A stretch of 64,000 nt of DNA from Williamsia maris (GTDB taxonomy: Bacteria > Actinomycetota > Actinomycetes > Mycobacteriales > Mycobacteriaceae), in the NCBI RefSeq assembly GCF_024171815.1, contig NZ_JAMTCJ010000001.1, positions 620,001-684,000 of the forward strand. The letters are read 5' to 3'. Under the pieces are notes generated by a model. The model was not told the DNA's origin, ran no database searches, and saw only the letters and a program-made list of their open reading frames with translations. A program made the translations under genes and the position numbers. This document shows, piece after piece, positions 17,517-34,666 of this stretch. Position 1 is the first letter of the stretch, and every line of letters starts with the position of its first letter.

Positions 17517-18061
17517 CCCGTACGGAAGCGGATACCGTCAAGTCCATCAGGCTGCTCGGAACCACGTGGCAACGCCGCGGTTTCCGCTATTGGTCACGGC
17601 GCACGGGACTCCTCCTACTCTGGCTCGCCGTTTTCGCATTGTCGATGTGGGTCGTCGGACTGTTGTTCAAAGTCGTGATCACCGACCGCGATGCTGACAC
17701 ATCCCTGCGCGGAGTCGCTCTCGGCGTCATGTCGGTTGCGGTGCTCTCCAGCTTCGCGTGGGGCTTCTCGCTGATGCGACGCTCGGACGCCGAGAAGAAG
17801 CTAGGCGTGCCGATGATCGTAAGATCCGGGACGGCTGTCGACGACCAGAGACGCGCAGCGTGGCAGGGATACGGCATCGGACTGGTGGCTGCCCCGCTCA
17901 TCCTGCTCGGACAGTTGTTCTTTGTCGGCGTCCTTGCTGCGCTCGTCCTGTCTTTGATGCAGCGGCACATCTCCGTCGAGGAGTTCGAAGCGGCCACCGG
18001 CCGCAAGGCCCCACCGAGGGTGAAGAAACAAAGACGATTAGGCCAGCGCCGACAACGTTGA
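17513..18061 (+). CDS. Membrane protein, fourth gene of ESX-like module copy 2
   Basis: A 182-residue paralogue of 844-1407 and 209-751. It has the SIRLLGTTWQRRGFRYW start, hydrophobic segments at about 30-55, 65-85 and 115-150, and the HISVEEFEAATGRKAP tail. Coupled to the preceding gene by an ATGA overlap. Unlike copy 1, there is no second tandem paralogue downstream; the sequence after the stop is featureless until a TOPRIM remnant. Confidence 0.84.
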   Translation: MTRTEADTVKSIRLLGTTWQRRGFRYWSRRTGLLLLWLAVFALSMWVVGLLFKVVITDRDADTSLRGVALGVMSVAVLSSFAWGFSLMRRSDAEKKLGVPMIVRSGTAVDDQRRAAWQGYGIGLVAAPLILLGQLFFVGVLAALVLSLMQRHISVEEFEAATGRKAPPRVKKQRRLGQRRQR

Positions 18062-18180
18062 CAGACGATCGCGGGGGTTGGGCATCCTTGGCTGCGCGAC
18101 TTCTCGCATCAGCGGAGCAACGCTGGCGTGCACCGGGCGATGTTATGCATGCCCAGGACCGGTCGGTGTCAAAGTCGCTG

Positions 18181-18453
18181 CTAGGTCGTCTCGATCAGCG
18201 CAACCGGACAATTGAACCGCCAACGTGGCCGCGTGCGAAGTAGGTCCTCGATCTCGACGTCGTGGTTGCGTTTAAAGCGATCGGACCATGCGCTCAGCGA
18301 CAGGATCCGATCCTTCTTCTTCCAGCCGAAGTCCTCAGATCGCCGTGCTGCGGTCTTGCCGATCTCGTCGTGGTCTGCAAGGGCAACCATGGGAACAGAC
18401 GTCGCCGATGCCGTCAGCGCTGCTCGGAACTCCGGCGGATACTGACGTGGCAT
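18181..18453 (-). pseudogene. Fragment resembling the TOPRIM part of an OLD-type nuclease
   Basis: The 90-codon frame contains VALADHDEIGKTAARR and a later VEIEDLL. Together these look like the DxD and acidic motifs of TOPRIM domains in OLD-family defence nucleases. No ATPase part is present and the length is far below any complete family member. The first ten residues (MPRQYPPEFR) look unlike the rest. It lies 78 bp beyond the Shedu stop on the same strand, so it marks the end of the BREX operon and is most simply a remnant of a displaced defence gene. Confidence 0.45.
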
Positions 18454-18531
18454 AGCTCCATCCTCCTACAGGAAGCGGAACTGTTCCTGGGGTACTTCAA
18501 GCCGATGCCCCGGAACGGAATTCGGACGGCC

Positions 18532-19830
18532 TTATCGGATCCCGCGATCCAAATTGGGGTCGTTCGTCTGAGGCGCAGAATTGTCGCTCGGCAGCTCAGC
18601 GTGGACCCGATCGACCTCGGCCGCAGCCGCTGCGGCATCCACATGCCACTCGGCCCGAGCGACAAGCTCGTCGAACGTGATGACCTCCGGTTCGTGGAGG
18701 TTTCGCCTGAAGAGCTCGAAGCTCCGCACCTTGCCGGGGATCGGCCCATTGCTGTCGCCAGTAAGCTGGCCTAGAGAACCGATGATCACGTATGAACGCG
18801 GCCGGAGGACAAACGTCCCTGTGCCGAGCAACTCACCGCTGTCCGCTTGGTCCTGGATGTAGTCGCCGAGATCCCGGCTCGCAAGGTGAACGGTCTGCTG
18901 AACTTGGACAACGGCACCACTGACCTCTTTGGATGGGCTCCAAGCGCCTGAGCGGTACTCCTCACCGAGAAGCGACGTCTGGTGATGCTTGATCTCGGCG
19001 AACGCGAGCGACCGCACGATGCCCGCCGTCCGAAGCAGAGCATCAACGCGCTTACCGACGCCCTTGATGCTCCTCCCGACGACCGTCTGTTCCAGCTGCC
19101 CTTCCTCCCAAGAGGTGAAGAGCTGACCGCCCAGGCCGATTCCGAGCACCCACGGGTTCTCTTCGAGCAGCTTCTGCCAAACCTTCTCCGGGCCTCCTGC
19201 TGCGGCGCGTGCTTCAGCAAAGGCATTGTCGTCCTCCAGCCAGAGTCGCATGGTGGCAGCGACCTCGCGCCGATGTTGCAGCGCAACAACATCTCTGGCG
19301 TCGGCATCGCTCTCGATCAGGGCGCGGAAACGCGTGGGATCTTTGGCGTAGACGCCAGCGATCGCATAGGGATCAGCGAACACGTCGCGGAGCAGCTGGT
19401 CATCCACCACGACTGTGCTTTCGCCTTCAATCGGGATCGAGTCCAGGGCCCGCAGCATGTCGATGAGGCGCTTCGCTTGGTCGCGGTCGAGTTCAAGGAC
19501 GTGTTCCAACTTGGTCATGTCGCCCGACGTTGGAACCTTCTGGATGCGGAGCTTCCGTACCGCGCCCGCTTCTCGCGCGACTTGCAACTGGAGCTGCTTG
19601 CGCCCTGCGGGGGTTGTGAACACCACGTCGTTCGTCCATTCCCAGTCGTTGTCGTCCTCAGTCATGACCTCATCGAAGACCCGATAGATATACCTCGCCG
19701 GCTCGCCCAGATCCCGTCCGAATTGCGTGGGAAAACTACGGCTTGCGTAGGTCCGAGTCGTGTAACGGCCTTCGGCATAGGTCACCTCCGTCGGTTCAGG
19801 CAGGTCACCAAATAGATCGAAGACACTCAT
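18532..19830 (-). CDS. Shedu (SduA-like) DUF4263 nuclease in BREX operon
   Basis: The 432-residue protein has a C-terminal DUF4263 domain: KVWQKLLEENPWVLG, then KRVDALLRTAG, FAEIKHHQTSLL and VSGAVVQVQQTVH. These give the PD-(D/E)xK-like arrangement of Shedu anti-phage nucleases (D in VDALL; E and K in AEIKHH). The first 230 residues form a separate beta-rich region, as is usual in Shedu proteins. ATG 19830 shares its first base with the brxL stop (TGATG); the frame upstream to 19971 runs antisense-like into brxL. Translational coupling to brxL makes it a structural part of this BREX operon, not a neighbour. Confidence 0.85.
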   Translation of the reverse strand: MSVFDLFGDLPEPTEVTYAEGRYTTRTYASRSFPTQFGRDLGEPARYIYRVFDEVMTEDDNDWEWTNDVVFTTPAGRKQLQLQVAREAGAVRKLRIQKVPTSGDMTKLEHVLELDRDQAKRLIDMLRALDSIPIEGESTVVVDDQLLRDVFADPYAIAGVYAKDPTRFRALIESDADARDVVALQHRREVAATMRLWLEDDNAFAEARAAAGGPEKVWQKLLEENPWVLGIGLGGQLFTSWEEGQLEQTVVGRSIKGVGKRVDALLRTAGIVRSLAFAEIKHHQTSLLGEEYRSGAWSPSKEVSGAVVQVQQTVHLASRDLGDYIQDQADSGELLGTGTFVLRPRSYVIIGSLGQLTGDSNGPIPGKVRSFELFRRNLHEPEVITFDELVARAEWHVDAAAAAAEVDRVHAELPSDNSAPQTNDPNLDRGIR

Positions 19831-21962
19831 CAGGCGCTCTTGTTCTCCTTGATGTACGTGACACCGAATGCAACAACGTGCCGAAACTCCTGCCGACGCG
19901 AGCCCATGTCGAATTGGCTTCGCGAGCCTCTCTGGAAGATATCGAGCCCACGCCCGAGCAGGATTTTCCAACCGTTATCGGTGGTGATCGAGCGGTCGTG
20001 GATGGTCTCGTCCCATTCCACATTGAACTTAATGCCCACTGAAGCCACACCGTCCTGGATCTCCTTGAGCATCAGAAGGTGCTGCTGCTGGAAGTCACCC
20101 GTGTTCTCCTTGGTGACGAGCTTGACTGCGATCTCTTCGGCCGGATCCTTGCCCAACGCGACCAGCGCGAGTAGGTCAGCGAGGTTGCGTCCTTGGTGCG
20201 GCAGTCGAATGTATGGGTCGACGATCCGGATGTCCGTAGCTCCGCGTACGTACGGCAACAGCAGGCTCTCATAAGAAACTCCGCGCTGGTTCTCCTGAAA
20301 GTCGCGATGACCCTCGAATAGCGGCGCCGGCTCGGGCGGGGCCTCGACCGCAGTAGCCGCAGTCGAGGCGCCGCTGGATGTCGCCTCGCCACTGACCTCA
20401 CCACCCCTCTGGTGGTAGTAAGCCGGGTACTCGTCCTCCTCGAGAGTAGTAACCGCGCGCCACTCGCCAGCCTTGTCCGTGAAGCCGAACTTCACCTCAG
20501 CCATCGTGGCGTCAATTCTCAGGATCTGGTCCTTGACGCGTTTGCGGCCCTCGACGGCGAATCGGAGGATCTCCTCGATCTGCTCCCTCGTGGCCTCACC
20601 GTGCGGGTAGATGATCTTCATCAGACCCGAGAACGTTTTGTGGATGCCGTCGCGGTCGCGTGTGGAGATGTCCGAGCCGAGCGTAAAGTGCCGCTGGTAG
20701 CGGTCGGAGTAGTCGGCGTCGCGCATCGCCTTCAGCACCTCGGCGATGTAGTCGACGACGAATCCGTAGCCGTCGGAGAACATTTCGCTGCGGATCGTGT
20801 CGACTTCCCAGCCCGGGATGTAGCAGTGCAGGCGGTCGAGGTAGGCCGAGTCGTGGTAGCCCTCGGGAAGTTCGTCGAACAGGTCGGAGTGCTTCAGCAT
20901 GTACGGCACGTTGTGCGATGTGTTGCCGACAAAGACCATCGATGCCTCGGCACCCAGGGTCTCGACACCTCGAGAGAAAGATTTATTCGCCATGTAGTTC
21001 TTCATGATGTCGACAAGCGCCTTGTCCGTGCGCTTCTTCTTGCCTGCGAACTCATCGAAGGCGACGACGTCCCAGTAGCCAACGAGACCGAGCCGGCCAT
21101 TTGAGTTGTTGACGAAAAGCTTGGGCACCGTCACCTCCCCACCAGAGATCAGCATGCCGTGGGGCGAGAACTCCGAGAAGATGTGTGACTTGCCAGTTCC
21201 CTTGGGGCCGAGCTCGACGAGGTTGTAGTTGCGCTCGACAAACGGGATCAGGCGCACGAGCTGGATGAGCTTGGCGCGCCGACCGAACAGCTCCGGGTTG
21301 AAACCGATCGACTGAATCAGTAGGTCAATCCATTCGTCAGCGCTGAACTCGCGGCGCGAGCTGACGTACCCATCGAAGTCGAAATTGGAGAGCTGGATCG
21401 GTTTGATCGAACCGAGAATCCAGGGGACGACGCGGGCGTTCTCGCTGTGCTGATACTCGATGTCGCAGATGCACCACACGCCGCCTACAAGCAGCTTCGG
21501 GTGCGCCTTAATGGTCGCCGGCGAGACGAGGACCTGCTTGATACCAAGGTTTGCGAATTCGGCCTCGTATGTGTCGTCCTTCTCGTTGAGTTGGACCTGC
21601 ACCTTGTCGATGACGCGGTAGCGGCCCTTTTCGCGGATGTTCGACTTGATGAGCTCGGCCTGGTTCCGGTGGACGTAGTGGTCGGCGAGGATCTTACGAA
21701 CACTCTCAATGCCGGATTGGATGGTCGCCTCGTCGTCTGAGGCGGCGTACTGGCCCAGGAGGTACTCCAGGACGAACGAGGGCACGATGGCGTTGCCCTT
21801 GACGGCTTTGACCAAGTCCTTACGTACGACAGCACCGCCAAAGACGTCGTTGATTTTCTGATCGAGAGCGGACTTCACAGGCGGACCCGTAGGGGCCGGC
21901 GCGTCATCGCCGCCGTCGGGTAAATCATCGACGGCCTTGGCAAGGTCGGACTGTTCGGTCAT
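19830..21962 (-). CDS. brxL: BREX BrxL AAA+ ATPase with MIT_C/phospholipase-D-like C terminus
   Basis: A 710-residue protein. Residues about 25-520 are BrxL-like: INDVFGGAVVRKDL, YVHRNQAELIKSNIRE, Walker A GPKGTGKSH at about 250, then VVAFDEFAG and MVFVGNTSHN. Canonical BrxL ends in a Lon-like domain. Here a Ser/Thr/Ala/Pro linker (about 525-560) leads to VDPYIRLPHQGRNLADLL, LVTKENTGDFQQQ, TIHDRSITTDNGWKI and GRGLDIFQ, matching the MIT_C phospholipase-D-like fold. AGGAGG precedes the ATG. BrxL binds DNA as an oligomeric AAA+ ring and is needed for phage exclusion in type 1 BREX. Confidence 0.92.
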   Translation of the reverse strand: MTEQSDLAKAVDDLPDGGDDAPAPTGPPVKSALDQKINDVFGGAVVRKDLVKAVKGNAIVPSFVLEYLLGQYAASDDEATIQSGIESVRKILADHYVHRNQAELIKSNIREKGRYRVIDKVQVQLNEKDDTYEAEFANLGIKQVLVSPATIKAHPKLLVGGVWCICDIEYQHSENARVVPWILGSIKPIQLSNFDFDGYVSSRREFSADEWIDLLIQSIGFNPELFGRRAKLIQLVRLIPFVERNYNLVELGPKGTGKSHIFSEFSPHGMLISGGEVTVPKLFVNNSNGRLGLVGYWDVVAFDEFAGKKKRTDKALVDIMKNYMANKSFSRGVETLGAEASMVFVGNTSHNVPYMLKHSDLFDELPEGYHDSAYLDRLHCYIPGWEVDTIRSEMFSDGYGFVVDYIAEVLKAMRDADYSDRYQRHFTLGSDISTRDRDGIHKTFSGLMKIIYPHGEATREQIEEILRFAVEGRKRVKDQILRIDATMAEVKFGFTDKAGEWRAVTTLEEDEYPAYYHQRGGEVSGEATSSGASTAATAVEAPPEPAPLFEGHRDFQENQRGVSYESLLLPYVRGATDIRIVDPYIRLPHQGRNLADLLALVALGKDPAEEIAVKLVTKENTGDFQQQHLLMLKEIQDGVASVGIKFNVEWDETIHDRSITTDNGWKILLGRGLDIFQRGSRSQFDMGSRRQEFRHVVAFGVTYIKENKSA

Positions 21963-21974
21963 CGCACGAACCTC

Positions 21975-24467
21975 CTAGAAGTCGAAGTCCGTCGTGAACG
22001 AACGCTTGATGGTGTAGTTGCCCTTCGAGAACGACTTCCACTGTGTCGTATTCGAGATGGGCTCTTCGAGACGCAACTCGACCGGACGATTGTTGAAGTC
22101 ATCGGCGTCCTGGGTCAAATACAGGGTCGTCGACTGGTACCGCTGGCGCTGGTCATCCGATGGGCTGTCGAAGGTGAGGATCGGCTGGTCGGAGATCAGC
22201 GTGTCACCGACATACAGGCCGAGGCGGACTTGGCGCGGCTGGATCTTGTCCACCACAGGCTCCCGCTGGAGCAGCTTGACCGCAAGCTGGCCCGTCGTGA
22301 TCTTGTCGGTCTCAGGCATGAGATCGACGTTGACGCGTCGGACGTCGCTCTTGCGCTTCTTGTTGACCGTCACCACCGGGACCACGATCTCCTGGAGAGA
22401 TGCTCCACCGTGGACGTAGCGAGTGCCGGCGCCCGGCAGCGGGATGCGGTGGATCGACTTGGGAATCTGGATGTCGATGTCACCAGCGAGACCAGCCTGT
22501 GCCGACGTGAACGTCATGAACGAAGGAGAAGGCTTCAGCGCCCGACCCAGCGCGTAGCGACGGTTGACCTTCGTAACTGCATCGCCCTGAGGCGACTCCG
22601 AGACGTAGTACGACGCCTCCAGCGGGATATCCTGATAAAGGAACCCGTGATCGGCCACGAGCAGGATGTTCGTGGCGTTGGCGTTCGTCCACTTCTTCAC
22701 AAGAAGCAGCAACTCCCGGAGGGTCTCCTCCGCAGCTTCGAAGACGGTCCGCTCGGTCGCCGCTTTGTCTCCGGCCGCATCGATGCGATCGTGGTAGACG
22801 TAGAAGATCTGGTGCTGCTTATAGAGCTCGCGCAGCTCGTCGCCAGACATCGCGAGGACAACGGCGGCGGCGATTGCGTGGCCCTTGACCGCTTGTAGAA
22901 TCTTGTCGCGATTTGCGGTGCCGTTCGTCGGTTTCCCGTCCGCGAGCACCGGTAGTGCGTTCGGATCAAGCTCCAGACTCGACTGCGGAAGCAGCGACGC
23001 CATGCCGAGCTGGGTGTAGCTCGGCAGTGAGCCGAGCACCGCCGAAAGCGATGCGTCGAAGCGATCTTCGCTGCGAATCATGGACGTAAGCTCGTCAGCG
23101 ACCTCGTACCGCATGCCGTCAGAGATGATGACGACCGCTTTGGTGCGTCCATCTTTTACGACAGGCGCGACGTGACGCTCGAAAAATTTGGCCTGCGGTG
23201 CGAGTGCCGCAGACTTCCAATCGCTGATGGGCTCAAGCGCCTGCTGCCAACACCCGCCGAAGTCGTAGAGGTACTTGTTGGCGTACTGCTGGTCGACCTC
23301 GGCCTTGAGCGATTCGAGGGGCTTCTGAAAGTCGGCGGTCTGGTAGGCGTGGGTGAACCAGCGGTATTGCTGGTCGATGCGGAACCATTCGGACTGGTAC
23401 TTCTCAAGTCCTCGATCTGCTGACGCAATCGCGGTCGGCAGACCGGCGATTGCAGCGAGCAGCTCCGATGCGCTCTGGATGGCCGCGTACAACTTGGCGT
23501 ACTTGGCTTTCCACAGGCTTTCCTGACGCTGACGCACCACCTCGGACACCTCACGCGGCGTCACTGTCTGAGCAGCGACGGCAGCAGCGAGGTCAACAAT
23601 CACCCTGCGGTCGACTTCCTCGAAGATCGTGACTTTGGCCAGGTCGCGATAGTCGCGGTGCTCGATCTTGGATTTAACGTCCAGCGCGTCGGCGGCCCGC
23701 GACGCAAGCGCCGTCATCATCTGATGGCTGCGGACGTCGTAGCGAAGGTTGTTGAAGTCACTGCGGACGTTGCGGAACTCGTCTGAAGTGGCGGACGCGA
23801 AGTCTTCGATCGCGCGGCTGAACATCCACAGGATGAAGTCGTCCATCGAAGGTTTGTTGCTCGGGTACTTGTAGATGCTGGCGAGCCCTTCCCAGAAGAA
23901 CTCGTCGAGGCCAAAGGCGACCAGGTCGTCAAACTTGGTTGTCTTGCCTGCGGCATTCTCGGCCAGAAGTTCTCGAGTGATGTCGGTCAGCTTGTTGCCT
24001 GATCCCTTGACCAGCACCTGGCACATCTTGGCGCGGAGCCGAGTTGCGTCGTCGTCCTGGGTCAGGAGTTTCTCGAGCGCCTGTTTTCGGCTGTTCGCGG
24101 CGTAGAACTTCTGGTGCCGCTCAAGGACCGGAGCGAACACCGGGTCGTTAAGTCCGAGTTCCTGCTGCAGCATCGAGATCTTGTCCGCAGTGAACACCCC
24201 GTAGGCGAGCTCTAGATCCAGTAGCCAATTGCCTGTGTCTCGCGGCGTGTCCCCCCCGCGGTAAACGAGGTGTGGGGTGACGTGGTCCGCAAGGATCCTG
24301 CTCTTCGCGCCGAACTCGTCGTCCTGCACGCGGATGACATTCACACCGCCGAGATCCAGCGAGTCAAGGTCCCCGGCATACTCGCCAGCCGGATCGTGCC
24401 AGAAGACGACACGACTGGTGGCGAAGCGGCCACGGAGGGCATCGCGGACGGAGGTCGGGTCAGTCAC
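21975..24467 (-). CDS. pglZ: BREX phosphatase-superfamily protein PglZ (type A)
   Basis: An 830-residue core component of BREX. The alkaline-phosphatase-superfamily core is visible at about 444 (VVIISDGMRYEVADEL, metal-binding Asp) and about 600 (LLVADHGFLY, D-H-G metal site), with a helical N-terminal half and a beta-rich C terminus. It starts at GTG, overlapping the end of pglX by 8 bp. PglZ works with PglX and BrxC in methylation and exclusion; its exact substrate is not established. Confidence 0.95.
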   Translation of the reverse strand: MTDPTSVRDALRGRFATSRVVFWHDPAGEYAGDLDSLDLGGVNVIRVQDDEFGAKSRILADHVTPHLVYRGGDTPRDTGNWLLDLELAYGVFTADKISMLQQELGLNDPVFAPVLERHQKFYAANSRKQALEKLLTQDDDATRLRAKMCQVLVKGSGNKLTDITRELLAENAAGKTTKFDDLVAFGLDEFFWEGLASIYKYPSNKPSMDDFILWMFSRAIEDFASATSDEFRNVRSDFNNLRYDVRSHQMMTALASRAADALDVKSKIEHRDYRDLAKVTIFEEVDRRVIVDLAAAVAAQTVTPREVSEVVRQRQESLWKAKYAKLYAAIQSASELLAAIAGLPTAIASADRGLEKYQSEWFRIDQQYRWFTHAYQTADFQKPLESLKAEVDQQYANKYLYDFGGCWQQALEPISDWKSAALAPQAKFFERHVAPVVKDGRTKAVVIISDGMRYEVADELTSMIRSEDRFDASLSAVLGSLPSYTQLGMASLLPQSSLELDPNALPVLADGKPTNGTANRDKILQAVKGHAIAAAVVLAMSGDELRELYKQHQIFYVYHDRIDAAGDKAATERTVFEAAEETLRELLLLVKKWTNANATNILLVADHGFLYQDIPLEASYYVSESPQGDAVTKVNRRYALGRALKPSPSFMTFTSAQAGLAGDIDIQIPKSIHRIPLPGAGTRYVHGGASLQEIVVPVVTVNKKRKSDVRRVNVDLMPETDKITTGQLAVKLLQREPVVDKIQPRQVRLGLYVGDTLISDQPILTFDSPSDDQRQRYQSTTLYLTQDADDFNNRPVELRLEEPISNTTQWKSFSKGNYTIKRSFTTDFDF

Positions 24468-27400
24468 TGGTCGACTCCAAGCCTGTAATCCTCTTCAACG
24501 CGGCGCCGAACTTCGGGTAGTTCGTCTTAACTCCGTCATCGAGGTCAATGACGAGGTTCTCGGAAGCCTTCGGGTAAAGCGTGTCGTGCTCATACTCGTT
24601 GAGCTCGACAAGGATCTTGCGAAGTCGGTCCGCTTCCTTCGCGTTACCAGCGCGGTCTGCCTGTTGGAGGCTGGACTCGAGCTTGGTCACGTACGCACGC
24701 AGGTATGTCAGCACCGCCGAGACAGTGGACGGCGTGTAGCGGTGCATGTAGATCAGACCGTTGAACGACCCCTTCGGGCTGGAGAAGAGCCAGTAGATCG
24801 GACGCTTCCTATAGCGCTGGACATGGTCGTCGTAGAACTTCGACTTTCCGGACCTAGTGACGAAGTAGTCCCGGAGATTCTTCACGCCGAGCGACTCAGT
24901 CACGAACTTGAGGTTCTCCTCAAAATACTCGTCACCGAACGTGGTCCGGAGGAACCGTCGGAAGAGCCCCACAATATCGTCCTCGAACCAATCACCGTCC
25001 ACAATCGGGATGACATTATCGGCGTCGGGCACGAACGCTGGGGTTGGCACCTTCGCGAGGTAGTCCTGCAATGTGGCACCCTGGTCTGCAAGCACGAGAC
25101 CCGGCTCGTCGAGGCTGTACCGGCCGAACATGCAGCCGACGGCGTAAGACACGAGGTCGGCGATAATGCTTTCCGGGGCTAGCGTGGACAATTGGTCATC
25201 GGCCCCGGCGGTGGTTTCGACGGAAAAGCCCAGAAGCGAGGAGACTCTCGCCTCGTTCTCCGCTTCGAGGGCACGCAGCCGGGCTCTACTCGTCTCGGTC
25301 CGCTGAATGACTCCAGCCAGGCGCTGACGCAACGAACCGTTGTGCTCGTCGACGAGCAAGGCAGGCGCATCGAACGCCCACGAGAGCTCCCGCGAATTCC
25401 ACTCGTGCTCCTGAATCGCGACGAGTTTGGCGACCACACCGTCATCGATCGATCCGAGATCGGGAAGAGGCAGCGCGCCCACCTGACCGGACTCGACGTT
25501 GAGCGTTGGCGAGAGCCCTGAAAGAAGCTTTACAGCCACCGAAGAATTGAGGTACCCAAGAAGGCGCCTGAAGTCCGCTTCAGTCACAGCGTGGTTTGAA
25601 AACAATCCCATGCCTGCGACGTCGAATAAGAACCCCGCCGGGATGTAGCGAAACCCAGGCCGCCCAGTATTGATTTTCGACCAAGTAATCATCGGCTTGA
25701 AATAGTTTCGCCTCCCGCGAAGGAATGCATGGCCGTAGTCCGAAATACGCCGGCCTGAGTCTTCCCAGTCGAGGACAAACTCCATGTTGCCGTACCAGCG
25801 ACGGGCACCGCCGCCACCCTTGTTGTAAGGAAACCAGCGAGCACCAGTCGCGGCTGCCGACTTCTCACTATCTGCGTTCAAGCAGGTTCGGGACCTGGCA
25901 ACCTCGAACCAGTACCTAACGAACGTGCCGTTGCTGCCCGTCGTCATTCCATTCATCGGCGAGTATGACGAGGTGATTGAGGGATGCGTGAGGAACATGG
26001 CGCCGAGTTCGTCGCTGAACCAGTAGATAATTGACGCCCCGGGAATATTTTCAAAGTAGTTCGAGTCACGCACGAACGAGACGTCCGCACGGCTACTTGG
26101 ATCAGCAAGAACCGAACTCTTCGAGGCCGAGTTTCCAGCATCAACGAGCCGTACATAGTGCCCGGAACCGCGAGCGGCCTTATCGATTACGAAGGCAGTG
26201 GTTGAGACCACCTCGCCGGCCAAGGTGTCGAATGCGCCAGTACCCAAGTGCGCCATAGATGCCAAGCGGTTATTGTGAATAAGCCCACGCCTGAACTTTT
26301 CGAAGCCGCTCAGAAACATCCAGGATTGCATTGTCACCATCGCGACGAGGCCACGATTAGAAACTAGGTCGACACTCCGCTCAATGAACATTGCAAACAG
26401 GTCGGACTTCGACGCGGGATAGCACGTCTTCGCGAACTCGGAGAGCCGAACACCCATGCTCCCACTGCCCATGTACGGAGGATTCGCCACCACCAGCGAG
26501 TACCGGAGCGTTAGAAATTTAGCTTGACGGATTGTCTTCTGGGCCCACTCCATGGCATCAGACTTGAAGATGTCTCCACCGTCGTCGAGCGAATCCAAGT
26601 GGTTGGCAAGGCGAGCGACCAAAGCGGGATCGGGCCTGACGAGCGAACCGAACGTCTCAGCCTCGGCGAACTGATTCCAGAACGCCTCTTCTGCGTAGCG
26701 ATCGCCATCCTTGGTCACCAGATAGCTGAGCTCGTCCGCACTGAACGAGATCGGATCAAGAACGCAGATTTTTGGCCTGACCGAGTTCTTGAGGAAAAGT
26801 TTGCGCTTGGCCACTGCCTTCATCGTCAGGGCAAATGCCGCGAGGGCTCCCGCGCGTGGGTCGATCTCGGTGCCGTAGAGATTGTTAGTGAGGATGAGAC
26901 CCGGGATCTCCGATGGGGCGTACCCTTCTTCCTCATAAATCGCGTAAAGGAGATCGAAGGCGTAGGTAAGCATATGGCCCGAGCCGCAGGCCGGGTCTAT
27001 GACCGTGACCTCCTCAGGCTTGCTCACTTTGAGGAAGCCCGTCTCTTCGTCGACCGGGGCGATGTAGTAGTCCATCTGACTCGCCAGACCCGACGTCGGG
27101 CGGTTGAGCATCCAAAGACGCCCGAGGGAGTTCTCGACGAGGTAGCGGACGATCCAGTGCGGGGTAAATAGCTGTGTGGCTGCCGGGATCTCGTCGGCGC
27201 CGGCCTTCTTGTTCTTCTTGAACCCGGCGAAGACTTCGTCCTTCCGCTCCGAAATGTAGAACTGATAAAGCCAGCCAATCACCTCGACGTCCTTGCAAAC
27301 GTCCTCGGTCAGCACCATCACAGACCGGCTGAGGACCGAGTCATCGGCGAGCAAGTTCGCCGGGATGAGCAGCTCTGTGTAGTCGCCCTCTCGCTCGAAC

Positions 27401-27894
27401 ATGAAGGGCATAGCCGCGTTCCAGAATCGGCAATAGTCCGCGAGGAGCAGTGCGTACGCCTCGGCCTGCGCGTCGACGCCTCGGCGCGGTTGACGGCTGC
27501 CGTTTAGCAACCCTGTGACCGTCGCGACGTTAGCCCCCTTGACCACATCGGTGTCGAGCTGGCCACGCTTTGCCGCCGCAAGCACCTCAGGCTGACCGAC
27601 CTGATCAGCTGCTGGCGAGACAATGCCGATCCCGGTGTAGCCGTTGGCGTCCATGAACCGCAGCGCGATGATGCGGTTGAACCAGGTGTAGGCGACCTTG
27701 TCGGCGACGTGCGCCTTTCCCTTGTCACCCCCACCAGCGCCGGCGATAGCTCGCTCCAGCGCCGTCACCGCCCTCGGCTGCTCCACGCGCTCAGGCGAGC
27801 CCTGGGCAGACACAGCAGCGATCCGCGCGCCCACCTCGCGGATGAGCTCGGAGCGGGCCGCGGTGGCGAACGACTTCAGCGGTGCGGTTTCCAT
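24460..27894 (-). CDS. pglX: BREX adenine-specific DNA methyltransferase PglX (BrxX)
   Basis: A 1,144-residue N6-adenine methyltransferase that marks host DNA for BREX self-recognition. The S-adenosylmethionine motif DPACGSGHML lies at about 298 and the catalytic NPPY at about 469, with a large C-terminal target-recognition region. ATG 27894 shares a base with the brxC stop (TGATG). The stretch corresponding to about residues 600-800 is noticeably richer in A/T than its neighbours, as often seen in exchangeable target-recognition regions. Length is normal for BREX type 1. Confidence 0.96.
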   Translation of the reverse strand: METAPLKSFATAARSELIREVGARIAAVSAQGSPERVEQPRAVTALERAIAGAGGGDKGKAHVADKVAYTWFNRIIALRFMDANGYTGIGIVSPAADQVGQPEVLAAAKRGQLDTDVVKGANVATVTGLLNGSRQPRRGVDAQAEAYALLLADYCRFWNAAMPFMFEREGDYTELLIPANLLADDSVLSRSVMVLTEDVCKDVEVIGWLYQFYISERKDEVFAGFKKNKKAGADEIPAATQLFTPHWIVRYLVENSLGRLWMLNRPTSGLASQMDYYIAPVDEETGFLKVSKPEEVTVIDPACGSGHMLTYAFDLLYAIYEEEGYAPSEIPGLILTNNLYGTEIDPRAGALAAFALTMKAVAKRKLFLKNSVRPKICVLDPISFSADELSYLVTKDGDRYAEEAFWNQFAEAETFGSLVRPDPALVARLANHLDSLDDGGDIFKSDAMEWAQKTIRQAKFLTLRYSLVVANPPYMGSGSMGVRLSEFAKTCYPASKSDLFAMFIERSVDLVSNRGLVAMVTMQSWMFLSGFEKFRRGLIHNNRLASMAHLGTGAFDTLAGEVVSTTAFVIDKAARGSGHYVRLVDAGNSASKSSVLADPSSRADVSFVRDSNYFENIPGASIIYWFSDELGAMFLTHPSITSSYSPMNGMTTGSNGTFVRYWFEVARSRTCLNADSEKSAAATGARWFPYNKGGGGARRWYGNMEFVLDWEDSGRRISDYGHAFLRGRRNYFKPMITWSKINTGRPGFRYIPAGFLFDVAGMGLFSNHAVTEADFRRLLGYLNSSVAVKLLSGLSPTLNVESGQVGALPLPDLGSIDDGVVAKLVAIQEHEWNSRELSWAFDAPALLVDEHNGSLRQRLAGVIQRTETSRARLRALEAENEARVSSLLGFSVETTAGADDQLSTLAPESIIADLVSYAVGCMFGRYSLDEPGLVLADQGATLQDYLAKVPTPAFVPDADNVIPIVDGDWFEDDIVGLFRRFLRTTFGDEYFEENLKFVTESLGVKNLRDYFVTRSGKSKFYDDHVQRYRKRPIYWLFSSPKGSFNGLIYMHRYTPSTVSAVLTYLRAYVTKLESSLQQADRAGNAKEADRLRKILVELNEYEHDTLYPKASENLVIDLDDGVKTNYPKFGAALKRITGLESTSD

Positions 27895-30800
27895 CAGAGC
27901 GTGATGCGCTTTCCGTCGTTGAGGGTCTCGACGAGTGCCCCCCGCAGAGCTTCGAGATAGAGGTCTATGTCGGCCTCGTCTTCAATGAACGCTGGTCCAG
28001 TAGGCACTTTGATTTTGCTGAGCGCTACTGATGGCTTTACGGGCCCCGATGGGCTCGCCGACTGTGCGAGCTCGTCGACAAGAGCGGGATAGATCGTCGC
28101 GACAAAGTGCGCGCCGGCCTGCTCCATCACCGCGATGAGGCGTTCATCGTCCAGACTCGCGAACACCATGTCTACGCGGTTAGTGACCGACTCCCGCGCA
28201 TGCGAGGTCGCTTCGGTGGAGATCGGTTCTTCCAGCAGGCTCGCCAGCTTGTCCTCAATAGCGCTCCGAATCGCGGCTCGGCTCGCGCTGACCTCGCTAT
28301 CGATGAGGCCACGGAGCGAGTCCGTCGCCACCTTCAGCTGGTTCATCTTGTTACCCCTAAAGGCATTCGGGTCCGCAAGCAGCGCCTTCACCGCGTCGGT
28401 GCTGCCGGCGGGGAGGTAGCTGAAGTTGCCAGTGTTGGCGCCGAGGAGTGCAGCGGCCTCGTCGAAGATCTTGGCCTGTTGGCCGTTGAGGAAGGACTTG
28501 ATCGGAACGACCAGATCCTCTTTGACATCGATCAGCTCGTCGGCCTTGTCGAATTCGCTGAGGTACCAATCGATGGGCTTGCCGACGACCTGGTCGAGCA
28601 AATTAACGACGTCCGAGAGCTGGCCGACGAACGGGTAGCGGCTACTGCTCACGAGGGCGTTGAGCTCATCGCGTGTGGCCGCAAGCTTGTCCCGTCCGAA
28701 GCGGGCCAGCTCGGTCGAGTCGCTTGGGACGGTGCCCTCATCGAAAAATTCGGTGCAGAACGCCTTGAACTTGACGACCTTCGTCGTGTCGTAGGCCTTC
28801 TGCAGCGCGACGATGGTGTGCTGCTGTTTAGCGGTGTTACGGATAATGGATGCGGCTTCAGTCCGCCCGACCGGGTTCGCATCGATCGCGAGCGCGACCT
28901 TTTCGTTACCGACCAACCAGCCGAGCACGACCTCGATGGACCCGAGGTCCCACCCGTAGGGCTTGGACTCGAACCGGTTCACAATCTTCTTGACGGTGAC
29001 CTGCTCCCCGAGCTTAGTCTGCGAGATAATCCACGACTCCATCTCGGTGCCAGGCGAACTGAGCGCGCTCAACGATCCCGCGCTGAACAGGCCCTGGTCA
29101 TTTTGGACCGCTGCTGAGACCTGTTGCTCCGGGTAGACCTTCGCGCCAAGCAGGCCCAGATTCGTGTAAGTCCTGTTGACGAGCTCTTGGAACCCGTCGC
29201 TCAACCGCGTGACCGGATCCTGAGAACCGGAGGTGATCTCCGCGGCGTTGATGATCAGTTGCGCCTTCCCGACAGCCTGGCGTAGGCGCTCGATGAGCTC
29301 CTTCTCGCGCTCGGCGTTGAGCACCTGCTTGGATTGAAGGATCGCCCGTGTCGAAGGCAAGGCACCTGCGTTGGTGCGCTGCTTGGTGTACTTCTCCGTC
29401 TTGAGCAGAAGGCGCAAGTCCGCGAGTAACCGCTTGTCGCGGCCAAGGAATACGCGCAGTTCATCCTTGCCCATACCCTGAGTGACGATCTCGGTGTCGG
29501 TGTAGTTCGTCTCGGGCGTGATGAAGTGGATGGTCAACTCGCGCTGGTTGCCCTGGACGATGTCGTCGAGCTTGTAGCCGAACGGGAAGTCCTGACCGTT
29601 CCTAGCGTACTTGAGCTTGTTCGTCTTGAGGATGTCGGAGGAGAGATACTTGAATAGCTTGCTCGATACCTCGGACGAGTCGACGTCGACCGACTTGATC
29701 TCCTTCTCGATCTCCTGTTCCTCATTGGTGAGGTACTCGTACAGGTTGCCGTTGCGCTGGACGTACGACTGCGCCTCCAACAGGTTGAGTGCGTCCTGCA
29801 CCTGCTTGCCAAGCGCATTGAGGTCGAGACCAAAACGGTCATAGACGACGACGGTGAGGTTGCGGGGGGTGGCCTTGAACGTATCTACATACTTGACCAG
29901 GAACAGCGCCTTCAGCAGGCGGTTGGCTAGGATCGTAACGTCGGACCCTGGCTCGGGAAGATGCTGCTCGGCCTGCAGGATTGCGCGCTGGCCGGACGCC
30001 TTCAAAGCCGCGCTGATCCCGGCGAACATCTGGTCGAATGTGGCCAGGTAGCCGACCTGCTCCGCGCCGATACGTTTAGCGACTTCCTGAACCACGCCAA
30101 GCATGGACCGCTCGCCGACTGAGCTGTTCTTGCCTTCAAACATGTTGTGGTCCGACAAGCCCTCGATAGCAGCTTGAAACATCGGGATCTGATACGTGAC
30201 GAACGGGTAAGCGCTGATGAAGCGCGCGCCATCAACATAATTTCGGTATGTCTTCGCACCGTCGACAAAGTCGAAGATCGTCTTGAAGTTCGCTCCCTCA
30301 TTGACGTGAATGGCCATGAGCTCAGCTGCACCCATGTCGTTCTTCTCCAGGAGGCGCTTGCTTATGACCTCCTCCACATCCTGGCTGGTGAGCTTTACCT
30401 TTACGGCGAACCGTGCCTGAATCTTTGAAAAGTCGTTCCCCTGCTGCCTGGTCCGGTCACCGATGACCTTGTCCATGTCCTCCTGCGAGGTAACAAAGAC
30501 CCACGACTGACCCTTGCACTTCGTGTTGAGGGACTCGGCGATCGTCTGAAGGTTAAGCATTAGCTTCACGTCGTCTGCGATGAATTGGCCGATCTCGTCG
30601 ACAAAGAAGTTGAGCCGGAAGCCCGGCTCCTGAATATCGATCCAACCCTTCACAGCCGCCGCGAAGTCTTCAATGGAGACGGCGTAAGACCTCTGGTACT
30701 GCTCGATAATGCCTGAATTGGCTCCCCCATTAACGTCGGCAAACGCCTTGTCGATGTTGTGAGCTTCAAGCGCCGTCTGCTCCCGTCCCTGCGCCCAATC

Positions 30801-31364
30801 AATCCCGGCGTGCTTCACGAACGCGACCTTGAACGCGTCGTACTGACCGCGCTTGTCGAGATCCTCCTCGAACCGTGCGACGGCTCCGTCGTTACCGAAG
30901 TAGCCGCGGCTCTCGTCGAAGACCTTAACGAAGACCTTGAGGAGCGCGTCCGTCTGATCCTTCGCGATCAGCGTCGCCTTCTGGTCCACGTTGAAGAGCA
31001 GGCTCTTGGCCGGGATAGCAGCGGCCTTCTTGAGCGATGCGATAAGCATGGCGTCATCGGTCTTATCCAGGAAGCTGTCACTCACGTCCGCGCGCGGGAA
31101 CGCCTGACCCTGAACGTCTCCGAGGAGGTGGGCGAGCATCTTCAAGAGGTGCGACTTGCCAGAGCCGAAGAATCCCGAGATCCACACGCCATTGGCGTTC
31201 GTGTAGTTGGTGTACTCCTCCAGTAACGGGGCCACACCTTTGGCCGAGTCGTTCGTGAATACGTACTCCTCGACCTCGACGCTGAGGTGGTCCACGTCGT
31301 CAGCCTTGACGACACCCTCGATCGATCGAGTGACGTCCTTGAGGAAGATCTCTTTGATTTTCAT
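27894..31364 (-). CDS. brxC: BREX P-loop ATPase BrxC
   Basis: A 1,156-residue ATPase. The start motif KIKEIFLKDVTRSIEGV and Walker A GFFGSGKSH at about 65-72 are typical of BrxC/PglY. A DEIGQF segment is a plausible Walker B. The ATG at 31364 has AGGAGG 10 nt upstream and sits 4 bp after the brxB stop; the longer frame from 31550 is antisense-like into brxB. BrxC is essential for BREX defence and methylation and probably assembles with BrxB and PglZ. Confidence 0.96.
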   Translation of the reverse strand: MKIKEIFLKDVTRSIEGVVKADDVDHLSVEVEEYVFTNDSAKGVAPLLEEYTNYTNANGVWISGFFGSGKSHLLKMLAHLLGDVQGQAFPRADVSDSFLDKTDDAMLIASLKKAAAIPAKSLLFNVDQKATLIAKDQTDALLKVFVKVFDESRGYFGNDGAVARFEEDLDKRGQYDAFKVAFVKHAGIDWAQGREQTALEAHNIDKAFADVNGGANSGIIEQYQRSYAVSIEDFAAAVKGWIDIQEPGFRLNFFVDEIGQFIADDVKLMLNLQTIAESLNTKCKGQSWVFVTSQEDMDKVIGDRTRQQGNDFSKIQARFAVKVKLTSQDVEEVISKRLLEKNDMGAAELMAIHVNEGANFKTIFDFVDGAKTYRNYVDGARFISAYPFVTYQIPMFQAAIEGLSDHNMFEGKNSSVGERSMLGVVQEVAKRIGAEQVGYLATFDQMFAGISAALKASGQRAILQAEQHLPEPGSDVTILANRLLKALFLVKYVDTFKATPRNLTVVVYDRFGLDLNALGKQVQDALNLLEAQSYVQRNGNLYEYLTNEEQEIEKEIKSVDVDSSEVSSKLFKYLSSDILKTNKLKYARNGQDFPFGYKLDDIVQGNQRELTIHFITPETNYTDTEIVTQGMGKDELRVFLGRDKRLLADLRLLLKTEKYTKQRTNAGALPSTRAILQSKQVLNAEREKELIERLRQAVGKAQLIINAAEITSGSQDPVTRLSDGFQELVNRTYTNLGLLGAKVYPEQQVSAAVQNDQGLFSAGSLSALSSPGTEMESWIISQTKLGEQVTVKKIVNRFESKPYGWDLGSIEVVLGWLVGNEKVALAIDANPVGRTEAASIIRNTAKQQHTIVALQKAYDTTKVVKFKAFCTEFFDEGTVPSDSTELARFGRDKLAATRDELNALVSSSRYPFVGQLSDVVNLLDQVVGKPIDWYLSEFDKADELIDVKEDLVVPIKSFLNGQQAKIFDEAAALLGANTGNFSYLPAGSTDAVKALLADPNAFRGNKMNQLKVATDSLRGLIDSEVSASRAAIRSAIEDKLASLLEEPISTEATSHARESVTNRVDMVFASLDDERLIAVMEQAGAHFVATIYPALVDELAQSASPSGPVKPSVALSKIKVPTGPAFIEDEADIDLYLEALRGALVETLNDGKRITL

Positions 31365-31368
31365 CGGG

Positions 31369-31980
31369 TCATGCCTCCTGGTCGAGGATGCGCTTGGCGC
31401 GGTAGAAGGAGTCGTCCTTGAGCTGCCCGAACAAAACCAGGGCAGATCCCTGGGTCGCCGACACTTCGTAACGTCCTGGGAAGAACAGAAGCATCGGCTT
31501 GTCGGAGACGACGGTTTGGAGATTGTTGAGAACCGTGTGCGAGCGAACAAACGGAAACACCTCGCCGATGCCTGTGAGGAACAGGATCTGGAACGACTCC
31601 GCCTCGATGCGTGCCTTGATGGCCGGCGCCAGGTGATCCTGAGGGTCCAGCATGTTCTGGAGCATCTTGAGGAAGTCGACCTTGTCCATCGTCGGCTCGG
31701 CCGCCAACACGCGATCCCAAACGTTGCGTTCCTTCAGGAGATCGACGCACAGCTCGTACAAGTTGATCTCGAAGACCCTGATACCTAGATCGGTTTCGAG
31801 CTTGGTCTTGATGCGCTTCCTGGCCTGTGCAACGTCGAGCGCCCACGTCGGGTCGTAGTCGTAGATGAAGTGGGCGACCTCGTTGCCCAGGCCCTCCATC
31901 TTCAGGAAGCGCTCACTGCTAAGCACCTTGAACAGGTGCTCCTCCTGTTGAGCCAATGTTTGTTTGGGGTGTGCGGGCAC
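31369..31980 (-). CDS. brxB: BREX protein BrxB (DUF1788)
   Basis: A 203-residue protein with the BrxB pattern: HLFKVLSSERFLKMEGL near the start, then VFEINLYELC, FLTGIGEVFPFVRSHTVLNNL, and a C-terminal LLFFPGRYEV. Start GTG 31980 shares its G with the brxA stop (TAGTG). The conserved part begins there, so the longer frame to 32178 is rejected. BrxB is a small conserved component of type 1 BREX needed for activity. Confidence 0.93.
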   Translation of the reverse strand: MPAHPKQTLAQQEEHLFKVLSSERFLKMEGLGNEVAHFIYDYDPTWALDVAQARKRIKTKLETDLGIRVFEINLYELCVDLLKERNVWDRVLAAEPTMDKVDFLKMLQNMLDPQDHLAPAIKARIEAESFQILFLTGIGEVFPFVRSHTVLNNLQTVVSDKPMLLFFPGRYEVSATQGSALVLFGQLKDDSFYRAKRILDQEA

Positions 31981-32609
31981 TACGCCTCCCTGGTTGGGAA
32001 GAAGCGGATGTCGCCCGGAGTGCGCTGGGTTATAAGCGCGGCGACGCGGGCGGAAAGAAGAGCTGGCTCGATCTCGCCCGTGCTGGTCAGCAAACCCGCC
32101 TCGACCATCATCCTGAAGAGCACCTGCCGAAGCTTCTTGTATGACTGGTCCGTGACCGTGGTGAGCTCCTCGTGCCACATAGCTTTGGCGCGGTAAAAGG
32201 AATCGTAGTCCTCGTAGGAAACGGTGCCCGCCAAGGTGAGGAAGCGCTCACGAAGGATTTCCTCGGCGAACTCGCCTATGAGGTCGTAGCGACGGCAAGC
32301 GGCTGCCCACATGAGGTGACTGCGCTCGGAGGCAGTTATCTCAGCGAGCGTCTCAACCTCACGATCGGAGAGTACCGATAGCCGTTTGACGGTTTCTCGC
32401 ACGCGCCGTACGCCAGTGCTGACAGTTCGCGCCTGTAGAAGATTTTCGTCGACGGCGAGGTCGCGCACCTTCACCCAGTCACGAACTTTGGCGTACACGG
32501 GAGCCAAGACTGCGGCCTCGTGCGCTAGAAGGCCTCCGGTCGTGAAGGACAACGCGTAGCGCCCTTCGGCGGCGGTCTGATCGCTGTTTACGGAACACCT
32601 CCCTCGCAC
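31980..32609 (-). CDS. brxA: BREX protein BrxA (DUF1819)
   Basis: About 209 residues with the BrxA signature: RYALSFTTGGLLAHEA, ENLLQARTVSTGVRRVRE, MWAAACRRYDLIGEFAEEIL. BrxA is a helical protein reported to bind DNA and leads the canonical type 1 gene order. The start is uncertain. An ideal Shine-Dalgarno (AGGGAGG) lies about 6 nt before a GTA codon at 32591, which is not a normal start. GTG 32609 is the nearest in-frame canonical start upstream, but it lacks a ribosome-binding site. A TTG nearer the conserved region (about 32552) is another possibility. Confidence 0.85.
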   Translation of the reverse strand: MRGRCSVNSDQTAAEGRYALSFTTGGLLAHEAAVLAPVYAKVRDWVKVRDLAVDENLLQARTVSTGVRRVRETVKRLSVLSDREVETLAEITASERSHLMWAAACRRYDLIGEFAEEILRERFLTLAGTVSYEDYDSFYRAKAMWHEELTTVTDQSYKKLRQVLFRMMVEAGLLTSTGEIEPALLSARVAALITQRTPGDIRFFPTREA

Positions 32610-33004
32610 CCGACAAGGGACAAGGGTACGGCGCCCCCTGGCGGTAGGCGGCGCGAGGCCCCGACCCGTGTGGGCCATCCATCTTCCGAGTCGCGTGCCA
32701 CTCCCTACCACCCCAGAGCCTGCCGATGCCGCCAGACAAATCTGGGCGGCGAGGCTGTCGCAAACTTGACCGATGCCCATGTCATTACAAGTTGCGTTGT
32801 CGGAGAACATCTTCACGGACTCACGCATCCGGCCATCTTCGCCCAGGGACGCGTCCAGCCAAGCAATATCCGACAAGCTGTGGGTCCTCACTCAAGGTTT
32901 AGCTGGCCTAGCGATCCTGCCAGACATTCGTACGCGAAGTCGTAACGATCGCTATATTCGGTTCATCCGTCGTTGCCGGGTATGTCCGACCCACATGCAA
33001 CGCT
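32610..33004. other. Divergent intergenic region upstream of the BREX operon
   Basis: About 395 bp between brxA and the remnant genes on the opposite strand. It must hold the BREX promoter. No convincing gene, WYL/BrxR regulator gene or inverted-repeat operator is seen. Confidence 0.5.
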
Positions 33005-33337
33005 ATGCGCATGATCGAAGGGGGCGATGTGCCGGATCAGGACATCGATGCACTGGTGGAGCTATGCCGCAGAGACTTGGGGCCGGCGGGCTACCCCGAC
33101 AGCCTCGCCCTGTGCATCATCGACTCGATTCAATCAACCGGCTCGCACTTCACATGCGTCGTAAATGTGGTGAACCGGTACCGCGATCTCCGCGCCCGAA
33201 ACGCCGAGACCGACGGAACATTGAAGCTGGCCTCGTTTACGCAGTTCGATGGACCGCGCGGCTGGGCGGCCGAGGTCAGCAACTGCAAGCCTGGCGCCAG
33301 CTTCTGGCCGCGCCGTCGACTGACGAAAGAGACTGAC
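33005..33337 (+). pseudogene. N-terminal remnant of an unnamed helical protein
   Basis: Translation gives YPDSLALCIIDSIQS, then VVNVVNRYRDLRARN and RGWAAEVSNCKPG. This is the N-terminal signature of an unnamed actinobacterial family that I associate with mobile or defence regions. About 105 residues are present before the frame runs directly into an unrelated gene start. The C-terminal part is therefore missing and the gene is truncated. GTG 33029, after AGGGGG, is an alternative start. Confidence 0.5.
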
Positions 33338-33728
33338 ATGCCCATTCCACTCATCGCTGCGGCGATCATTATTGCCGGCGGCGCAAGCGGCGGCGGCGGG
33401 CTTGCGCTCGGCGGGAAAGGCGCACTGGATATGAAGAAAGCCCGCAGCGATCTCGAGTGCATCACGTGACACTGAGATCGCGCGGATAAAGGCCGAGGAG
33501 AACGTCCTTCGTGATTACTTCGCGCTCGTCTTTGCCGATCGCAAAAACACGATCGACCAGATGTTCACGCGACTGGACACTGCACTGGAATCTGGCGACG
33601 CCGCAGTCATCAAGACCGTCGTGGACAGCGTCGTCGACATCGCGAAATCATCCCCGATCGCGGACATGGGCGATCTCAGCCAAGTTCGCGCCGCTCTCGA
33701 CGATCCCGATCACGTTTGGGAGCTCTAG
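33338..33728 (+). pseudogene. Two-part remnant of a small membrane-associated protein (internal deletion and frameshift)
   Basis: The first 43 codons give a hydrophobic Gly-rich N terminus (MPIPLIAAAIIIAGG) and KGALDMKKARSD, ending at TGA 33467-33469. From about 33471 the frame shifted by one continues as coherent protein (ARIKAEENVLRDYFALVF, then DMGDLSQVRAALDD and HVWEL) to a TAG at 33728. The two halves look like the ends of one protein whose middle was deleted out of frame. No function is known. Confidence 0.55.
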
Positions 33729-33758
33729 CTCGCTTAATCCATCCGCGAACCGGAAGAG

Positions 33759-34136
33759 TTGATTCGCATTTCTCGTTCCAAATCGAAACGGTCCAAGCCG
33801 CCAGCACCGAAGCCACCGGCACCTAGACCTCCACGCCCTAAACCACCAGAGACGGCGGAAAGCCACCGGATTTCTCGCGAGCTGAAAGCTGTGCGCCTAG
33901 CCTTGGAGACTCAGCGATGGGAATGCCGACGCGAAGCAACTCGGCAGCGGGTGCAGCACCTGCAAAACTTATCGATGCGCGAGCGGAAACTTGCCGAACA
34001 GTGGAAGTCCCTACTCGAGCCGACGTCAATTGCGAAGCCAAAAAAGTATGTGCACTATCAGCCAATTCCAACATCGCGACGGAAAACCAGCCAAGTCGAG
34101 ATAATCACAATTCACCGTCCAACCGCACACCATTAG
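33759..34136 (+). CDS. Hypothetical basic protein with proline-rich N terminus
   Basis: A 125-codon frame starting at TTG, 30 bp after the remnant above. Residues 10-30 are Pro/Lys repeats, 35-80 form a charged helix (SRELKAVRLALETQRWECRR), and the tail is basic. The base composition is lower in G+C than surrounding genes. No family is recognised. It may be a genuine short gene of the island or a further fragment. Confidence 0.4.
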   Translation: MIRISRSKSKRSKPPAPKPPAPRPPRPKPPETAESHRISRELKAVRLALETQRWECRREATRQRVQHLQNLSMRERKLAEQWKSLLEPTSIAKPKKYVHYQPIPTSRRKTSQVEIITIHRPTAHH

Positions 34137-34666
34137 TGCCCACGACTAACAACGACTCGTAGCGCTTCGCGGCCCTTCCCCTTCCAAGGAAGTCCACCCA
34201 AATCCAGAAGAACGTGAGAATGCTCTGCACACCCATGGAGCACTTTGATGTGGAAATGAGATATTCGCGATCGAGACTACGACCTCGATGCGGCGGAACA
34301 GGATTATGGTCTACGGCGGGTGGCAGAGCCATCCGACCGACCAGCCGTCTCGCTGCCGATCCTTAACAGTGCGTCGGGACGCTGTTGTGTCTTCGCCGCT
34401 CCCGCAACGTTGGAAATTCGCCAACCCTGTCGCCTGCATATGCACACGAGCTTCGAGCCGAAGCTCTTGAGCTTTGGGACACAAAAGCAGGTGAGCACGC
34501 GGCGCCCCCATGGCGTTGTCACACGCGCGAGTTGAGACCCCCATGCCGCGGGTATCTCCAAGAACCGGGGACAAAGTGGCGCTAGGTGCTAAGTCGACGA
34601 ACTACGTTCATGCGCCACGCCTCCACCAAAGATCCGACTGACCGCCTGATCTCGTATGCTGGGTGC
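34137..34666. other. Gene-poor stretch of the defence island
   Basis: About 530 bp with only short, incoherent frames on both strands. No RNA gene, repeat or insertion-sequence end is recognised. Probably degenerate spacer. Confidence 0.5.

Follow-up and report, generated by a model that had tools for sequence, protein, structure and literature searches.

Nucleases adjacent to or inside BREX loci have been described, among them Shedu-type PD-(D/E)XK enzymes, TOPRIM/OLD proteins (Gabija, PARIS) and GmrSD, in a recent survey (Rakesh and Krishnan 2026, PMC12839542), which also states, citing Gu et al. 2025, that Shedu was "previously linked to BREX". Defence genes of one system that lie inside the operon of another are known from the "guilt-by-embedding" work of Payne et al. 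(2024), here taken from its citations in PMC12988326 and PMC12255303, and DarTG2 was reported between hsdS and hsdR at a site termed a potential recombination hotspot (PMC12255303). Both the linkage of Shedu to BREX and the embedding of defence genes are already in print.

The stretch of Williamsia maris DNA analysed here (64,000 nucleotides, referred to as the window) had been predicted to carry a type 1 BREX operon of seven tightly joined genes on one strand, with a Shedu nuclease as the last. Gene identities were assigned using Pfam, PADLOC and NCBIfam profile searches, and the operon, brxA-brxB-brxC-pglX-pglZ-brxL-sduA, was found on the minus strand at 18532–32609, with the following features.

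31980–32609, minus strand: brxA, 209 aa, assumed GTG start at 32609 (Pfam BrxA 171 bits, PADLOC BrxA 232 bits)
31369–31980, minus strand: brxB, 203 aa (Pfam BrxB 141 bits), with a 1-nt overlap, TAGTG, with brxA
27894–31364, minus strand: brxC, ATPase, 1156 aa (NCBIfam BREX_BrxC 1059 bits, cut-off 400), Walker A motif GFFGSGKS
24460–27894, minus strand: pglX, adenine methyltransferase, 1144 aa (NCBIfam BREX_1_MTaseX 1204 bits, cut-off 500), NPPY motif
21975–24467, minus strand: pglZ, type A, 830 aa (NCBIfam TIGR02687 701 bits, cut-off 270)
19830–21962, minus strand: brxL, HRD/PLD-type variant, 710 aa (TIGR02688 637 bits, cut-off 329), with BrxL_N, BrxL_ATPase and MIT_C domains and a Walker A motif
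18532–19830, minus strand: sduA, Shedu nuclease and last gene of the operon, 432 aa (SduA_C 105 bits, cut-off 27; PADLOC SduA 413 bits, profile positions 3–388 of 392)
19828–19832, minus strand: TGATG stop-start overlap of brxL and sduA (brxL TGA at 19832–19830, sduA ATG at 19830–19828, one base in common), identical in a second genome, G739

The gaps between successive genes are -1 nt (brxA-brxB), +4 nt (brxB-brxC), -1 nt (brxC-pglX), -8 nt (pglX-pglZ), +12 nt (pglZ-brxL) and -1 nt (brxL-sduA), and the tight joints were therefore confirmed, as was the base that the sduA start codon has in common with the brxL stop codon. Stop-start overlaps of 1 nt occur at three of the six junctions (brxA-brxB, brxC-pglX and brxL-sduA). 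A promoter separating brxL from sduA was also looked for, and a scan of both strands from 18400 to 21000 identified no sigma-70-like promoter where 0.7 were expected by shuffling, which is weak evidence in an actinobacterium. The claim that Shedu synthesis is tied to BREX holds to the extent that this anatomy supports operon membership and makes coupling to brxL translation probable, but a special adaptation of Shedu to BREX is unsupported.

All six core genes of type 1 BREX (brxA, brxB, brxC, pglX, pglZ and brxL) are present in one operon, the type A PglZ and the BREX-1 PglX exceed the curated cut-offs, and the Walker A and NPPY motifs are present. The C-terminus of BrxL is an MIT_C domain (residues 561–705) in place of the Lon-like domain of the textbook protein, and includes the motif H655-x-R-x4-D662 inside the last 150 residues; structure matches were to PDB 8emc over residues 32–497 and to MITD1 (4a5z) over residues 555–688. 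This protein fits the BrxL-HKD/HRD variant, for which Rakesh and Krishnan (2026, PMC12839542) give a count of 1030 among 2913 taxa, and as the HRD-type is a known variant of type 1 according to the same source, the assignment to type 1 stands though the Lon-like domain is missing.

The nuclease residues of SduA (D263, E279 and K281) are invariant in 36 sequences, as in a PD-(D/E)XK enzyme, and the DUF4263 nuclease domain matches the solved Shedu structure 8ti8 (E 1e-26). For residues 1–200, a sequence search of solved structures, those of Shedu included, gave no convincing match.

Other features of the window were also noted. GC content is 57–61% over positions 18001–36000 (2-kb steps) and 63–72% between 36 kb and the right end, a contrast consistent with acquisition as an island. 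Divergent from brxA is a gene for a NOV_C protein (34586–35515, plus strand; PADLOC candidate PDC-S36, 314 bits), followed after 27 nt by a 250-aa reading frame without family (35543–36295, plus strand), and these two may form another defence pair of the island. The gene at 36801–42875 (minus strand) encodes an RHS-repeat protein of 2024 aa for which a T7SS secretion signal is predicted, and 11235–12770 (plus strand) includes a WXG100-like domain.

The position directly behind brxL (the slot) was surveyed in 40 actinobacterial operons with an HRD-type BrxL, the window included, drawn from genome samples and three actinobacterial plasmids. The 40 include near-copies (L157, L158 and L159; L106 and L120), two operons with a split brxL in which the slot is not reliably readable (L109 and L165), two short downstream contigs (L158 and L161) and three operons with pglZ undetected in the fetched piece (L128, L192 and L204). 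Four genomes with a Lon-type BrxL (L110, L111, L130 and L131), G921, which repeats L120, and the BrxL fragments in G400, G886, G887, G954, G1052, G1162 and G1205 lie outside the sample. Of the 40 operons, 14 were found to carry a co-directional gene that has a PADLOC match and a start position -7 to +24 nt relative to the brxL stop, while 26 have no tightly joined defence gene behind brxL. For ten of the 14 guests the start lies at the brxL stop codon or within it, a number that falls to nine if the guest in G999, for which the start is either -7 or +2 and the frame is open to -52, is taken to start at +2. The 14 slots hold ten kinds of guest, as follows.

Shedu: the window and G739
SIR2-HerA: G751, G999 and G1208
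Large ATPase most like Ppl: G118 and G617 (best stretch in the C-terminal part only, 98–102 bits)
Avs2: G030 (874 bits)
Gabija GajA-GajB: G519 (749 and 648 bits)
GmrSD type HEC-05: G384 (646 bits)
YhcG-type nuclease, PDC-S02: G074 (301 bits)
Kinase near PD-T4-6 and mad6: G402 (94 and 111 bits)
NsnA/PD-T4-2-like GmrSD_N gene with a HEPN gene: G1092 (186 bits)
GmrSD second gene behind a weakly matched first gene (37 bits): G152

Not counted among the 14 were a broken GajA start (83 codons) at the brxL junction in G1207, a regulator at +13 in G1211 with generic HTH PADLOC matches of up to 36 bits, and, in G879, a gene at -34 whose 235-aa product has no family assignment. Genes farther from the brxL stop also fall outside the count, these being STAND-like at +95 (G761), Mrr-like at +145 (G696) and +146 (G534), and Dsr1-like at +141 (G1261), as well as a gene at +77 in G824. 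A kinase gene is found at -3 from the brxL stop in L130, one of the genomes with a Lon-type BrxL. The ATPases of 995–996 aa encoded in L154 (4358–7342) and L105 (9905–12892), for which the best Ppl match is restricted to the C-terminal end, are possibly a separate, undescribed relative of Ppl.

As a defence gene within 30 nt behind brxL was found in none of 11 plasmid operons outside Actinobacteria (L122–L124 and L166–L173, the latter read from incomplete PLSDB gene tables, with L173 ending about 0.6 kb behind brxL), the slot is not a general feature of BREX. The comparison of 14/40 with 0/11 (Fisher p = 0.023) is descriptive only, the operons being related, and the same applies to an earlier, smaller count of 12/27 (Fisher p = 0.0076). 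At readable junctions inside the operons, insertions longer than 400 nt were found in 0/11 for brxA-brxB, 0/15 for brxB-brxC, 0/22 for brxC-pglX, 5/34 for pglX-pglZ and 4/37 for pglZ-brxL, indicating that the brxL end is favoured in this sample and that both sides of pglZ are minor places. Operon tails accept any gene, and the slot effect may in part reflect the ordinary growth of operons in defence islands; the comparison is with the internal BREX junctions. Individual insertions elsewhere include an AbiE pair between pglZ and brxL in R. opacus (L121, 6530–7959), a PDDEXK gene between pglX and pglZ in Methylomonas (L166, 280–1437), and two genes just 5' of pglX in Sphingobium (L122, 282–1954), where the cut gene that precedes them is brxC by position only.

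Pairs of related operons were found to differ at this place. G617 (L154) and G751 (L155) share 95.5% identity over 3,986 nt, ending 12 and 15 nt short of the brxL stop, and past that point G617 has the Ppl-like gene and G751 has SIR2-HerA, each overlapping the brxL stop. G696 (L157) and G761 (L160) are likewise 94.7% identical until 12–15 nt before the brxL stop and divergent beyond it. Both flanks are common to G740 (L156) and G696 (94.6% identity before and 98.2% after), with a difference of ~1.2 kb directly behind brxL; the reading frames within the extra ~1.2 kb of G740 are all on the opposite strand, and none is a co-directional guest. The window and G384 share DNA that is 88% identical (three long blocks) and a PglZ that is 92% identical, but carry Shedu and GmrSD, respectively, and their divergence begins earlier, towards the C-terminal domain of BrxL. 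A stronger view, that the brxL end of actinobacterial BREX operons is a dedicated exchange site, is possible but is put forward only tentatively. In this view, the last brxL codons and the region behind the guest would be fixed boundaries for the swapping of complete anti-phage systems, BREX would be a mobile expression chassis whose last position is open, and each guest would be made in proportion to BREX via stop-start coupling.

Other parts of the operon were also found to vary. Between the window and G384, PglX residues about 351–950 are 19–64% identical and both ends are 82–100% identical, and the target-recognition part of PglX is, judging from these alignments, exchanged separately from the remaining operon. 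For the C-terminal HRD domain of BrxL (residues 555–706) there are at least two alleles, one in the window, L153 and L162 and another in most other operons, without correspondence to the guest.

The comparison of the window with G384, in which the N-terminal part of BrxL is 94% and the C-terminal domain 50% identical and the guests differ, had suggested that the C-terminal domain of BrxL is matched to the guest. This was ruled out by G617 and G751, which are 99% identical in that domain and have different guests, and three pairs with the same guest gave no consistent excess (residuals +0.10, 0.00 and -0.12).

A search for other genomes in which brxL is directly followed by a DUF4263 gene, a check that the original prediction had called for, was answered by G739, from another family of the same class, where brxL and sduA are joined by an identical TGATG; the linkage is therefore not unique to the window. 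Compared with the window, G739 is 88% identical in SduA, 91% in BrxL and 90% in PglZ, and DNA identity over the entire junction is 88%. The dN/dS values for this pair are low (0.136 for sduA, 0.073 for brxL and 0.110 for pglZ), and by this measure sduA is under purifying selection. In G739, brxC and pglX each occupy two frames, and the BREX system of this genome may be decayed or mis-assembled.

The original prediction had raised a composite defence. In a true composite, the BREX complex, for example through BrxL, would recruit Shedu, or Shedu would pick its target via BREX methylation. The stop-start overlap and the purifying selection acting on the pair in two genomes of different families agree with such a composite. 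However, the window and G739 retain the same Shedu despite an identity of only about 50% in the second half of PglX, which argues against Shedu reading a BREX mark. In addition, the near-identical BrxL C-terminal domains of L154 and L155 are followed by different slot genes, variation in this domain is independent of the slot, and the same brxL-end place holds unrelated systems elsewhere. A true composite is thus considered very unlikely.

The context of SduA relatives was examined more broadly by scanning an 84,980-species collection with an alignment of nine SduA sequences, which gave 323 confirmed stretches, of which the best 80 were kept (upstream sequence of at least 2.5 kb in 73 and at least 9 kb in 52). 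BREX genes were found in the fetched flanks of none of these best 80 of 323 relatives (tblastn with six BREX proteins, E up to 1e-3). The BREX-linked copy in G739 is absent from the best 80 and was found through BrxL. Among plasmids, no BREX gene was found with the nine SduA relatives examined of 56 matching records (72% to 31% identity), and none of 406 records covered 80% of a joined BrxL-SduA query (60 rows seen), which is sensitive only to similar SduA. In a Bradyrhizobium plasmid (L008), the SduA relative adjoins a convergent DUF499 gene; the DUF499 ATPase is filed under BREX-related systems in PMC12839542.

In a tree of 33 SduA sequences, the two BREX-linked copies form one clade (100/99) nested among the others, beside copies from Kribbella and Geodermatophilus, the Geodermatophilus contig stopping about 0.3 kb upstream. 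In G074 the two are apart: an SduA of this kind lies on one contig, and the BREX operon, which has a different guest, on another. Joints to other genes were also seen: the SduA relative of Nocardioides ferulae (L053, 9985–10030) overlaps the stop of a type I hsdR gene by TGATG, and that in L087 begins within an MmeI-type gene, 14 nt before its end. Among unlinked relatives with at least 600 nt of upstream sequence, SduA starts within 30 nt of an open stretch of at least 200 codons in 5/85, and of these five, two follow restriction genes by Pfam and three (L012, L073 and L005) follow what resemble, by eye, chance open frames. In two Bradyrhizobium sequences (L068, 8115–9875; L071, 8182–9962), a reverse transcriptase gene precedes the SduA relative, with 56 and 85 nt between them.

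A special link of Shedu to BREX as a general statement is ruled out by the absence of BREX genes from the flanks of the best 80 of 323 relatives. The same result, together with an N-terminal (sensor) half for which conservation is close to that of the nuclease half in linked and unlinked copies alike, leaves the proposal that Shedu uses BREX status as a trigger unsupported. Conservation of the N-terminal half of the window SduA is 0.89 with G739 and 0.79 with the Kribbella copy, compared with 0.92 and 0.83, respectively, for the nuclease half. As the N-terminal half is nearly as conserved as the nuclease half in comparisons with both linked and unlinked copies, the protein fits an autonomous Shedu.

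Rarity would be expected if a single Shedu had become fused to the operon end by chance in one lineage, as a passive passenger with coupling that has no function, and Shedu indeed occupies the slot in only 2/40 BREX operons and has no BREX in the flanks of the best 80 of 323 relatives. As ten kinds of defence gene are found at the same junction and sduA is under purifying selection, a chance fusion is regarded as highly improbable.

The main alternative is that Shedu is a guard or back-up, silent or harmless while BREX is intact and firing when a phage inhibits BREX. Guards of restriction systems have been published, with PrrC guarding EcoprrI (PMC12707154) and PARIS answering Ocr (PMC12839542), and the fixed position and coupling agree with such a role, a single logic of which could hold for all occupants of the slot. 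The occupants are from unrelated families, however, and close relatives of SduA in the best 80 of 323 have no BREX in their flanks and a similarly conserved N-terminal half. The guest in the window is an SduA, and not a homologue of AriA/AriB or PrrC as in the known guards of the PARIS and PrrC type. A guard function is considered unlikely.

As the guests are unrelated and have only their position and coupling in common, the simplest explanation is that BREX gives expression and joint transfer, and that each guest adds an autonomous layer. In actinobacterial type 1 operons with an HRD-type BrxL, the place behind brxL would then be a swappable cassette position, with BREX providing the platform for expression and transfer and Shedu adding a complementary layer that is autonomous, a reading to which we assign a probability of about two in three. 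Self-sufficient anti-phage genes, single or paired, would attach directly behind brxL, often overlapping its stop, and would be transcribed with BREX on one transcript, probably translated by re-initiation, and transferred together with BREX. The Shedu of the window would most likely respond to a trigger of its own, which its unlinked relatives must also do, and would act independently of BREX as a second layer against phages that BREX does not stop. BrxU, which lies beside BREX in the E. fergusonii pEFER island, protects alone and covers other phages (PMC8565348), and by analogy this points toward an autonomous guest. In Salmonella StySA, transcription effectively stops behind brxL (PMC9009780), indicating that an open BREX end is not universal.

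Should the slot prove real, a place behind brxL would mark a gene as a predicted defence system, and unfamiliar genes found there are candidates for new ones. Near-identical BREX operons with different guests would also be a natural test of how two defences in one operon divide the work. The question would then move from how BREX triggers Shedu to why the end of the BREX operon admits guests.

In the literature searched, no description of the brxL end as an exchange position was found. A single position at the brxL end with whole systems replacing each other, or a stop-start overlap, was not found described in PMC12839542, in the main text of which the words "avs" and "sir2" are absent, though the supplementary tables of that paper may list such loci. 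Like the genes found by "guilt-by-embedding" (Payne et al. 2024, as represented in the papers citing it), several slot genes match its candidate families (HEC and PDC names). Unlike embedded genes, which by the definition in those citing papers have core genes on both sides, sduA follows the last core gene, and the exchange boundary of the guest is the brxL end. The DarTG2 site, as outlined in PMC12255303, is alike in that different defence modules are exchanged at one position of a modification operon, but belongs to type I restriction-modification and is internal. BrxU, as described for the BREX island of pEFER (Picton et al. 2021, PMC8565348), is likewise a second nuclease in a BREX island, independent and complementary, but is a GmrSD enzyme from E. 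fergusonii. With the stand-alone Shedu proteins (PDB 8ti8 and 8ps4; see the review PMC12904381 for an outline), the window SduA has the PD-(D/E)XK nuclease domain in common, and differs in an N-terminal domain without a sequence match to the solved ones and in being encoded in a BREX operon, where it is one guest of the slot.
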